Origin: Thermotogota bacterium
GTDB lineage: Bacteria > Thermotogota > Thermotogae > Thermotogales > Thermotogaceae
Direction: 5' to 3'
Assembly: GCA_030550515.1 (NCBI GenBank)
Contig: JAUQPE010000029.1
Location: 62,001 to 126,000, forward strand
Length of the DNA: 64,000 nucleotides
Position numbers and translations under genes: made by a program. This document shows, in pieces, positions 26,064 to 28,994 of the stretch (within the stretch, counting starts at the first letter, position 1; every line of letters begins with the position of its first letter). The notes under the pieces are model-generated. The model was not told the origin of the DNA. It saw only the letters and a list, made by a program, of their open reading frames with translations, and searched no databases.

Positions 26064-26288
26064 TTGATCGTCCGAGTGTGCATGGGGAGTTCCTGTCATT
26101 TGAAGGGATCAGCGAAAGTGGTGGATAAGTTAAGGGAATTACAGAAAGAGTTACCTTTCAAGCTCTACGGTGCTCTCTGCTTTGGAAGGTGTACGGAGGG
26201 GATATGCGTTGAAGTGAACGGGAAGGTTTACACCGGTGTGAACTCTGAGAACGTGGTCGAGATAGTGAGGAAGGAGTGTGGGGAGTGA
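26064..26288 (+). CDS. Small thioredoxin-fold [2Fe-2S] ferredoxin-like protein
   Basis: A 74-residue NuoE-type [2Fe-2S] protein. Cluster cysteines form CMGSSC and CFGRC, and GICVEVNGKVYTGVNSENVVEIV follows, the usual end of this fold. It probably shuttles electrons or senses redox state with the HydS-like protein encoded next. TTG 26064 is chosen because GAGGTGAG precedes it; the frame is open upstream to GTG 26025, inside the operator region. It overlaps the next gene by GTGA. Confidence 0.85.
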   Translation: MIVRVCMGSSCHLKGSAKVVDKLRELQKELPFKLYGALCFGRCTEGICVEVNGKVYTGVNSENVVEIVRKECGE

Positions 26289-27868
26289 GCGAGCTCATCT
26301 TTTCGAAAGAGACCGATTGCAGGTATTGCTACAAGTGCCTGAGGAAATGTCCCGTGAAGGCGATCTCTTTCCAGCACGGCAAATCCAAGGTTTTGGACGA
26401 AGAGTGTATCCACTGTGGCACCTGTCTGAAGACTTGCCCGCAAAACGCGCGAAGTTACAGGAAAGATGTGGGGAAGTTTCTGAATCTTGGAAAACCCTTT
26501 CTCGTGTCCATCGCCCCTTCCTTCTTCGCGTACTTCGAAGAGCCTTTAAAGGTTGTGGGAGCGCTTAAGAGGATGGGGGCGTTGGTCGTGCAGGAGACAG
26601 CCGTTGGGGCCGAAATAGTCTCGAGGAAGTACAAGAAATTGTTTGAAACGGCAGAAAGGCCCTTCATCACGACAGCTTGTCCTGTCGTTGTGAACCTCGT
26701 TGAAAAGCACTTTCCAACGCTGAGAGATCGCCTGTTCCCGTTCGATTCACCGATGGTGACACATGCGAAGTTCATGAAAAAACGCTATGGAGATTTTCCC
26801 GTGGTTTTCGTGGGACCATGTATCGCGAAGAAAGAGGAAGGAAAAGCTCACGTCGACGTGGTGTTGACGTTCGAGGAACTCGAGGAGATCTTACCGGATC
26901 TGAACACAGCTCAAGAAACGCTTCCAGACGGCCCATACCCGAACAGGGCACGTTCTTACCCGTCCACCGGCGGGGTTGGGATCACGTCGGAAGTTTCGTG
27001 GGAAGAAAGCGTCGTCATCGAAGGTGTGGAGAACTTGATGAGGTTCTTCGAACAAATGGAAAAGATAGAAGGAAGATTGTTTGTGGAGGCTTCCGCTTGC
27101 GTTGGCGGGTGCTTGGGCAGTCCCATCATGTCGAACCGCGTACCCGGGAAGGAGAGGTTGAAGTCTTGGATGAAGAAGTTGCCGACCCAACCGTGTTTGA
27201 GGGAACACGATCTGGAGATCACCAGGACGTTCTCGGACAGGTCCAAAAAGGTCCAGATAGCCGAAGAAGAGGTGCAAGAGATCCTTACTTCGATAGGAAA
27301 AGATGATCCTTCCAAAGAGTTGAACTGCGAAGCGTGTGGTTACGAAACCTGTAGGGAGAAGGCCAAGGCGGTCGTCTTGGGAAAGGCAGAAAGGGAGATG
27401 TGCTTCACCTACCTGTTGGACCTCGTGCGGTCTTCCAGTTACAGGGTAGTCGAAGAATCCCCGAACGCTGTGTTCGTGAAGAAAGAGGGAAAGACGATCT
27501 ACAAGAACAAAGTTGCAACGGAACTCCTGGAAAAGTACGGAGAAGGTATCTTCCAAAAAGTCGAAGAGAACCTCGGCCAGACCCTCACGTTGGACGATGG
27601 CGAGAGAAGGTACTTCATCGTGAAGAAGTTTCACCTTCCGGATGGAGAGGAAGTGTTGATGTTGATCGACATCACCAGAGAGAAAATGCGGGAAGAAGAG
27701 TTGAACAGGTTGAAGTTGGAAACGCTGAAAAAGTTTGAAGAGATGCTCAGAAAGCAGATGAGGATCGCTCAAGAGATTGCGGGGATCCTCGGTGAATCCA
27801 TAGCGGAGACGAAGAGCAGTTTCTTCGAGTTGAAGAGGTCATTGGAGGGAGAGAATGATTACCTGTGA
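26285..27868 (+). CDS. Sensory-type [FeFe]-hydrogenase (HydS-like) with PAS domain
   Basis: 527 residues. Two [4Fe-4S] motifs come first (CRYCYKCLRKCP, CIHCGTCLKTCP). The H-domain then has altered motifs: L1 is TTACPVV instead of TSCCPAW, so the proton-relay Cys is Ala; L2 is VGPCIAKKEE; L3 is EASACVGGCLGSP. A further CEACGYETC...C cluster motif follows near residue 345, then a PAS-like domain (~385-480) and a coiled-coil tail. This is the group C (HydS) layout, thought to sense H2 or redox state rather than turn over H2 rapidly. GTG 26285 follows AAGGAG. It overlaps the phosphatase gene. Confidence 0.9.
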   Translation: MSELIFSKETDCRYCYKCLRKCPVKAISFQHGKSKVLDEECIHCGTCLKTCPQNARSYRKDVGKFLNLGKPFLVSIAPSFFAYFEEPLKVVGALKRMGALVVQETAVGAEIVSRKYKKLFETAERPFITTACPVVVNLVEKHFPTLRDRLFPFDSPMVTHAKFMKKRYGDFPVVFVGPCIAKKEEGKAHVDVVLTFEELEEILPDLNTAQETLPDGPYPNRARSYPSTGGVGITSEVSWEESVVIEGVENLMRFFEQMEKIEGRLFVEASACVGGCLGSPIMSNRVPGKERLKSWMKKLPTQPCLREHDLEITRTFSDRSKKVQIAEEEVQEILTSIGKDDPSKELNCEACGYETCREKAKAVVLGKAEREMCFTYLLDLVRSSSYRVVEESPNAVFVKKEGKTIYKNKVATELLEKYGEGIFQKVEENLGQTLTLDDGERRYFIVKKFHLPDGEEVLMLIDITREKMREEELNRLKLETLKKFEEMLRKQMRIAQEIAGILGESIAETKSSFFELKRSLEGENDYL

Positions 27869-28994
27869 GATTCACTACGATTTCAAGAACAAGGAAGGAG
27901 AAGAGGTTTGTGGAGATTCCATCAACGTCAAAAAGAGCGATAGAAGGGTTGTCGTCAGCATCTCTGACGGACTCGGAAGCGGTATCAAGGCGAGTATCCT
28001 GTCGACGCTGACGACCTCGATGGCGACAACGATGCTTTTCAAAGATCTCCCGATAGAGGAAGTGTTCAAGGCGATACTCTCGACACTTCCCGTCTGCAAG
28101 GTCAGAGGTATAAGTTACGCAAACCTCTGTTCGGTGGTGTGCGATTTCGAAAAGAGAAGGTGCTGGACTGTCGAGTACGAGTTTCCACTGCTTTTGCTCT
28201 TCAAAGACGGCAGGGACGTATCCATCGGGAAAAAGCGTTTGGTCGTGGAGGGAAGGGAGATCTTTGTGGGAGAGTTCGAAATCGAAGAGAACACCTTTTT
28301 GTTCGCGGCAACCGATGGTCTCCCACAAGCCGGTATGGGAACGGACCTTTTCCCGTTCGGTTTTGGAGTCGAGAACACGAAGAGAGAAATAGCAGAACTT
28401 CTCAGGCACAGGGTGAAACCTGCGGACATAGTGAGGCATCTTGTGAGGTTTGCGAAGAAGTTGGACGAAGGGATAAGGGGAGACGATGCCTTGGTGCTCT
28501 GCATGTTCTTCAGGCCCAAGAAGATTACCAACCTCTTCGTTGGCCCCCCGGAAGACAGAAATAGGGACGAGGAGATGGTCTGGAAGTTTCTCTCGCTTCC
28601 CGGTAAGAAGATCGTCTGCGGGGGTACCACCGGAAAGATCTTCGAAAGGATCACGGGGAAAACTGTGGAGATCGACATGAGCACCATGGACGAGGATTCT
28701 CCACCAATAGGTTACATGGAAGGGGTGGACTTGGTGACGGAGGGCATCGTCACGCTCACACAGGTGTTCCGTTTTTTGGAAGGGCAGACGGAAAAGGTGG
28801 GTTTCGGAGCGAGATACATCGTGGAGGCGCTTTTGGACGCTGACGAGATCAATTTCTTCGTTGGCAGGAGCATAAACCCAGCCCATCAGAACCCGTTGTT
28901 CAGTCACGACATTTCTTTGAAGTTCCGCATCGTGAAGGACATCGCCCGGATACTAGAGGGGTATGGAAAGATCGTGAAGGTTGAATACTGCTGA
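27855..28994 (+). CDS. SpoIIE/PP2C-type serine phosphatase
   Basis: 379 residues. The PP2C-like domain is seen in [29 protein letters not shown] (Asp metal ligands at ~20 and ~38), [13 protein letters not shown] and [14 protein letters not shown]. The C-terminal ~150 residues ([36 protein letters not shown]) form an extra domain I do not recognise. Following the HydS-like gene with overlap, it is the likely output of that sensor, dephosphorylating an unknown partner; a STAS-domain gene exists at 44975 but is unlinked. Confidence 0.88.

Follow-up and report, generated by a model that had tools for sequence, protein, structure and literature searches.

The stretch of DNA analyzed here (the window, 64,000 nucleotides) comes from a Thermotogota bacterium (GenBank assembly GCA_030550515.1, contig JAUQPE010000029.1, positions 62,001 to 126,000). 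The host has a 1.6 Mb Thermotogales genome, in which the [FeFe]-hydrogenase domain was matched three times. From 25.9 kb of the window, the following order is read rightwards: two TTGTGAAAAATRTAACG sites, a small [2Fe-2S] protein, the putative sensory [FeFe]-hydrogenase HydS, a PP2C/SpoIIE-type phosphatase, HydC, HydB, HydA, and Rex (Table 1). The open reading frame (ORF) of HydS (26276-27868) has a GTG start at 26276 or 26285 and overlaps the ORF of the phosphatase (27855-28994) by 14 bases. The original prediction had described positions 26285-28994 as HydS plus an overlapping phosphatase, forming an H2/redox signaling pair in one module with the [2Fe-2S] protein and Rex. The coordinates and motifs given there are correct, and the [2Fe-2S] protein and Rex were both confirmed by profile scan. 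The signaling pair, already proposed in print, is supported by gene order and co-occurrence.

Among 45 Thermotogales genomes, the phosphatase and a full HydS are both present in 35 and both absent in 10, and neither was found alone; the presence of HydS was scored by hand, and the HydS of genome G040 is divergent. HydS adjoins the phosphatase in all 30 fetched loci, and the phosphatase adjoins the HydS of other Thermotogota orders in 6 of 6 loci (L253-L258). Absence of the phosphatase from most hydS loci, which would have spoken against a pair, was thus not observed in Thermotogota, the phylum covered by this comparison (Clostridia were left out). A search for the C-terminal domain (CTD) of the phosphatase in other genomes, as proposed originally, used the scan patterns [AS]INPAHQN and HDISLKFR and confirmed at least 565 relatives; the locus counts given here refer to the best 80 of these. 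These loci span Thermotogota, Atribacteria, Bacillota/Clostridia, a Spirochaetales, and a Planctomycetota bin. HydS is located directly upstream in 78 of the 78 testable loci. This tally includes 76 of the 80 plus-strand ORFs, assigned by an automatic rule, and two loci with an overlapping HydS ORF (L062 and L087), assigned by eye; L042 and L089, which start at a contig edge, were left out. The lone minus-strand CTD ORF (L041) has a PAS-only gene. Upstream HydS proteins of more than 400 amino acids were found in 71 of the CTD loci. The genome sets overlap: L034/G082, L039/G102, and L041/G030, for example, appear to be shared, and at least two of the six loci from other orders (G082 and G102) appear to be among the 80. 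The HydS-phosphatase pair looks indivisible, and this apparent indivisibility is new.

The genes around the pair are more varied. Of 76 loci scored by the automatic rule, 60 have an Fd2-type [2Fe-2S] gene before HydS, 8 are cut by a contig edge, and 8 lack this gene. On the 3' side of the phosphatase, the 80 loci contain a HydC-first arrangement (38 loci), a single-subunit hydrogenase (22 loci, one locus having both), or neither of these (21 loci). Upstream ORFs were read by eye in 14 of the 80 loci, and the clustering of neighboring genes used 73.

In HydS of the window, the motifs TTACP and EASACVGGCLGSP were found, and the Cys residues of both are kept. The altered H-cluster motifs of the original prediction are therefore real changes, confined to second-sphere residues, with the motif Cys themselves intact. 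The relay residue is A131 when counted from 26285, in the same numbering as for Thermotoga maritima HydS. At the relay position of 72 HydS proteins (71 upstream proteins and that of the window), Cys was found in 32, Ser in 22, Ala in 13, Phe in 2, and Val, His, and a gap in one each. The replacement of the relay Cys by Ala is genuine. It does not define the class, because Ala is found in only 13 of the 72 HydS and Cys is kept in 32. The Ser of the GSP element is rare, this position being Gly in 70 of 72 proteins, and the following Pro is common (63 of 72). The C-terminal [4Fe-4S] motif is present in all 31 aligned HydS segments. The PAS domain assigned to HydS earlier is recognized through homologs, since 25 of the 31 aligned segments match PF00989; the copy in the window is degenerate and had no Pfam match in a profile scan. 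In the KQMRVAQE stretch of the output helix, Q and M are invariant in the 31 alignment rows.

The PAS domain and output helix were also found as a separate protein of 142-171 amino acids in nine Thermotogota genomes (the short copy, from G001, has no helix). Three of these PAS-only proteins were profile-scanned, and all matched PAS families. In seven of the nine genomes (G030, second cluster; G099, G101, G118, G120, G126, and G137), the PAS-only protein follows the [2Fe-2S] gene and is encoded directly before the PP2C-CTD protein. The phosphatase thus retains the PAS domain and its helix as a neighbor, which points to the output helix as the coupler to this enzyme. The hydrogenase of the PAS-only clusters is a separate protein of 478-499 amino acids with no FeS or PAS part, carrying TSCCP in six genomes and ASACP in G030 and G040. 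Two [2Fe-2S] genes and the separate hydrogenase were found near the PAS-only genes of L244-L250 and L252. In one Thermosipho-type genome (L041/L252), a fused HydS cluster and a PAS-only cluster face each other, with Rex beside them.

The SpoIIE profile covers residues 28-217 of the 379-residue phosphatase (Pfam, E 1.5e-15), and the approximately 160 residues beyond it have no Pfam match, as expected for the overlapping PP2C/SpoIIE phosphatase with an unrecognized C-terminal domain described before. Two alignments of the window's protein with the locus proteins were used, A3 with 70 rows and A4 with 73 rows. D21, D38, D154, D210, and D211 are invariant in 70 phosphatase sequences, and we take them to be the metal-binding residues of the PPM family. 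The structure model of the phosphatase (predicted local distance difference test, pLDDT, 91.7) was superposed with Z 23.5 on 3pu9, 22.5 on SpoIIE (5ucg), and 19.5 on RsbX (3w40). The intact Asp residues and the match to the PPM fold argue that the phosphatase is probably catalytically active. Its first structural element, a strand, already belongs to the catalytic fold; the linker helix found at the N terminus of RsbU-type enzymes is absent.

The CTD comprises residues 220-379. Of 81 ORFs with this domain, 80 have it fused to PP2C and one is truncated. Among the relatives beyond the best 80, CTDs in other settings are possible. The copy in the window had no match in Pfam or NCBIfam, weak scattered Pfam matches were found in one to three of 73 CTD members, comparison with PF02142 gave no match, and comparison with Protein Data Bank sequences gave nothing confident (best E 0.14). 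The conservation of INPAHQN among the fetched loci is in part a consequence of the scan pattern, which contains this motif; the motif is also invariant in 15 Thermotogales sequences from a whole-protein search. The CTD was modeled as a confident alpha/beta fold (pLDDT 92.1), in which the GGTT and INPAHQNP loops are conserved. The INPAHQNP loop falls in the lowest-confidence stretch of the phosphatase model (block mean 53), as might be expected of a loop that binds a ligand or partner.

In a Foldseek search, no structure matched the CTD model at E <= 0.001; among the matches listed, those with the highest probabilities were methylglyoxal synthases (MGS; probabilities 0.97 and 0.94, E 4e-3 and 2e-2, TM 0.36-0.39). 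In contrast, VIA puts the CTD closer to the alpha/beta domains of NuoG and formylmethanofuran dehydrogenase (FwdB), with Z up to 10.7 over 120 residues, as compared with Z 6.0 for the methylglyoxal synthase MgsA. In 19 profile comparisons by hhalign, MgsA came first (16%), followed by MgsA with CarB (8%), and the best unrelated family reached 1.6%. A set of 36 molybdopterin oxidoreductase sequences gave 0.1%, and a PurH-rich MGS set gave 1.6%, no better than unrelated families. The MgsA profile, which outranks 17 other families, holds 12 sequences, mostly close relatives, picked after the fold search. The CTD is thus best described as an uncharacterized alpha/beta domain that is possibly MGS-like, the profile and model comparisons giving a hint rather than proof. 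Six Thermotogaceae without HydS or its phosphatase (G032, G033, G034, G042, G043, and G044) all match molybdopterin oxidoreductase.

Two Rex-operator-like sites, spaced by 50 bases, are located ahead of the operon, of which rex is the final gene. The Rex operator of T. maritima TM0201 also contains the TTGTGA of the first site (PMC8836258). The search pattern was composed only after both sites had been seen. Of 14 inspected loci, 7 have TTGTGA-type sites close to the [2Fe-2S] gene (5 of 6 in Thermotogota, 0 of 4 in Atribacteria, and 2 of 4 in others), a count made with no chance control. The paired sites before a rex-terminated operon suggest autoregulation by Rex. Residues ~571-641 of HydA form a C-terminal thioredoxin-like [2Fe-2S] domain, of a family to which the small protein encoded upstream of HydS also belongs.

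Table 1. Coordinates of the features of the HydS-phosphatase locus, as positions in the window.
Feature	Position	Strand	Evidence
Rex-operator-like site 1, TTGTGAAAAATGTAACG	25959..25975	+	pattern match
Rex-operator-like site 2, TTGTGAAAAATATAACG	26009..26025	+	pattern match
Small [2Fe-2S] thioredoxin-like protein	26064..26288	+	PF01257, E 8e-10; TTG start proposed by eye
HydS, putative sensory [FeFe]-hydrogenase, group C type	26285..27868	+	Fe_hyd_lg_C, E 2e-40; motifs; alignment
HydS C-terminal [4Fe-4S] motif, Cx2Cx4Cx16C	27326..27403	+	PF04060; four Cys in 72/72 aligned proteins
HydS degenerate PAS region (approximate)	27425..27685	+	alignment; homologous segments match PF00989
HydS C-terminal output helix (approximate), proposed phosphatase coupler	27686..27865	+	alignment
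PP2C/SpoIIE catalytic domain	27855..28511	+	PF07228; invariant Asp; structure model
C-terminal alpha/beta domain (CTD) with GGTT and INPAHQNP loops	28512..28991	+	alignment; structure model
HydC	29003..29497	+	PF01257, E 8e-56
HydB	29490..31367	+	name from context and ORF; no Pfam scan of its own
HydA, catalytic subunit with TSCCP	31374..33317	+	ORF; profile scan
Rex	33304..33936	+	NF003996 above cut-off

The locus belongs to an already catalogued and widespread kind of system. In HydDB, group C3, "Phosphatase-linked (putative)", may sense H2 and regulate via serine/threonine phosphatases (PMC5037454). The group C sensory hydrogenase, the adjacent Ser/Thr phosphatase, and the proposed H2-sensing role are common to C3 and the locus studied here, whereas the CTD, the PAS-only form, and the target are not mentioned in the available part of the HydDB account (PMC5037454). 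Motif Cys kept with an altered second sphere, a C-terminal FeS motif with PAS, and an adjacent phosphatase are the C3 features found here. By these features, rather than by the HydDB network, the assignment to C3, like the pairing itself, is close to certain. The T. maritima locus TM1420-TM1422 presumably has the same operon order. These genes have been listed as sensory (PMC3561251). As far as its published description allows comparison, T. maritima HydS resembles that of the window in Ala at A131, Gly at 177, Ser replacing Met near the L3 Cys, and the presence of PAS (PMC10055695). A131 and other second-sphere positions of this enzyme were mutated, and low activity and a shifted H-cluster potential were reported; the available part of this account does not mention a phosphatase (PMC10055695).

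A Ser/Thr phosphatase subunit was mentioned for the Ruminococcus albus sensor, and the cluster containing the sensor fell 111-fold, which its authors tied to H2 (PMC6776011). In the hfsABCD genes of Thermoanaerobacterium, the PAS hydrogenase HfsB is followed by HfsC, described as a serine phosphatase homolog, and by the hydrogenase HfsD (PMC5707799; PMC11837493), whereas HydCBA and Rex follow here. This likeness, including that of hfsC to the phosphatase studied here, is judged from description and gene order. The RsbU/RsbP-type phosphatases share the PPM fold and invariant Asp, and probably the sensor-helix-phosphatase logic (PMC12143880; PMC11418112). In contrast to them, the phosphatase of the window has its sensor and helix on a separate protein, an added CTD, and no obligatory STAS partner. 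The literature searched, which did not include most subscription papers, yielded no description of the CTD, of the PAS-only form, or of the dissociation from STAS.

On this basis, the locus may be read as a group C3 phosphatase-linked H2/redox-sensing module, a mechanism that, as a whole, we consider moderately probable. The H-cluster of HydS would read H2 or the poise of low-potential carriers, and its state would be relayed through the C-terminal [4Fe-4S] cluster and the PAS domain to the terminal helix. The helix would then act in trans, its partner being the PP2C phosphatase from the overlapping gene. The phosphatase would act on a Ser/Thr-phosphoprotein, not obligatorily a STAS anti-anti-sigma factor, and would thereby adjust redox and hydrogenase genes alongside Rex. 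We infer H2 as the signal, the contact between helix and PP2C, and the output in gene expression. Since RsbU-type phosphatases are switched by a linker helix (PMC12143880) and the PAS domain with its helix stays beside the phosphatase in the PAS-only loci, HydS probably supplies the switching helix in trans.

Several points weigh against this mechanism. Gene pairing alone is no proof of signaling, and two of the nine PAS-only genomes deviate from the common order: in G040 the divergent HydS intervenes, and the G001 genome (71% complete) yielded no phosphatase. In Thermoanaerobacterium saccharolyticum, deletion of hfsA or hfsB raised the adhE transcript two- to threefold, but deletion of hfsC or hfsD did not, and deletion of hfsC slightly lowered hfsD (PMC5707799). 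In T. thermosaccharolyticum deleted for hfsABCD, hfsD alone restored high ethanol (PMC11837493). Therefore, the phosphatase is not required for that high-ethanol/adhE state, and the sign of HydS action is not readable from these deletions.

The target might be sought in classical partner switching, with the phosphatase dephosphorylating a STAS anti-anti-sigma factor and an RsbW-like kinase opposing it. The original prediction had named the STAS protein at 44975 as a candidate. This gene is real (44975-45307, PF01740, E 7e-23) and is located 16 kb from the pair, next to aspS-like and cytidylate-kinase-like genes (named by eye). STAS proteins are the substrates of those SpoIIE-type phosphatases whose function is known (PMC11418112), the host has two STAS matches and one RsbW-like protein, and STAS is present in 33 of the 35 Thermotogales carriers of the phosphatase. 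However, a second SpoIIE protein of the host, with a weak GAF match, is free to serve STAS, and no ORF near the 80 CTD loci was labeled as STAS with the window's protein as the query. Among the 45 Thermotogales genomes, STAS was found in 41 and RsbW-like and RsbU-like proteins in 40 each (the raw RsbU-like count of 41 included a match in G030 that was discounted as its HydS-type phosphatase copy). RsbU-like and RsbW-like proteins track STAS (p 3e-5 each), whereas the HydS phosphatase tracks neither STAS (p 0.21) nor RsbW/RsbU (p 0.065 each); these values are driven by one clade, and the genomes are not independent. Eight Thermotogales genomes have STAS and no HydS phosphatase. Conversely, the STAS partner expected in RsbU-RsbV-RsbW switching wherever the phosphatase occurs is absent from 2 of the 35 Thermotogales carriers and from 9 of 36 other tested carrier genomes from the 80 loci (drafts). 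The former two, G028 and G030 (98% complete each), keep HydS and the phosphatase with no STAS, RsbW-like, or RsbU-like match. In their genus, g13 (G027-G030), all three are jointly absent in four of four genomes, as if the whole partner-switching system had been lost. STAS was rejected as the general target on these STAS-free carrier genomes; it may be a substrate in some species, and partner switching as the explanation of the module is quite unlikely. A kinase gene, which we assume from clostridial annotation to be conserved in the operon, was not recovered in the 80 loci: a search from the host RsbW-like protein labeled no ORF, and this single-sequence query may miss distant ATPases. A kinase between the sensory and bifurcating genes has been mentioned (PMC3561251).

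The output might instead be post-translational, with the phosphatase acting on a redox-pathway enzyme (HydABC, alcohol dehydrogenase, or a kinase-modified metabolic enzyme) rather than on a transcription regulator. Hydrogenase genes are located 3' of the phosphatase in 59 of the 80 loci, and Rex, in 14 of the 73 clustered loci, is the sole regulator family recurring nearby. In contrast, the transcript changes in the hfsA and hfsB deletions (PMC5707799) and in the R. albus cluster (PMC6776011) favor transcription, and the choice of substrate cannot be inferred from sequence; we regard this explanation as unlikely. It is very improbable that HydS serves mainly as a slow redox valve, with the phosphatase gene a mere passenger in the operon. 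T. maritima HydS does turn over H2, slowly (PMC10055695), and the relay Cys is kept in 32 of the 72 HydS, but HydS and the phosphatase remain paired in different phyla even though the downstream gene changes, and the PAS part is found directly before the phosphatase in seven of the nine PAS-only genomes. The H2/redox-sensing module with a helix acting in trans on the phosphatase is therefore the reading retained here. A doubtful extension of it is that the C3 phosphatases form a STAS-independent PPM branch with two inputs, namely the H2/redox signal, brought in trans by the HydS PAS helix (a "split RsbP"), and a phosphorylated metabolite, for which the CTD, as a diverged MGS-like domain with its GGTT and INPAHQNP loops, would be the binding site.

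In fermenting anaerobes, the balance among H2, acetate, and ethanol shifts with H2 pressure, and the output step of the [FeFe] sensory hydrogenases matters there. Tight gene pairing with HydS singles out the phosphatase as the probable first output. Given the distribution data, STAS no longer counts as a required target, which clears the way for a search for the real substrate, and the PAS-only loci mark a HydS-phosphatase contact worth testing. C3 systems may be recognizable in sequence data by their CTD. If the two-input reading were true, the module would weigh H2 back-pressure against the flow of carbon through glycolysis.

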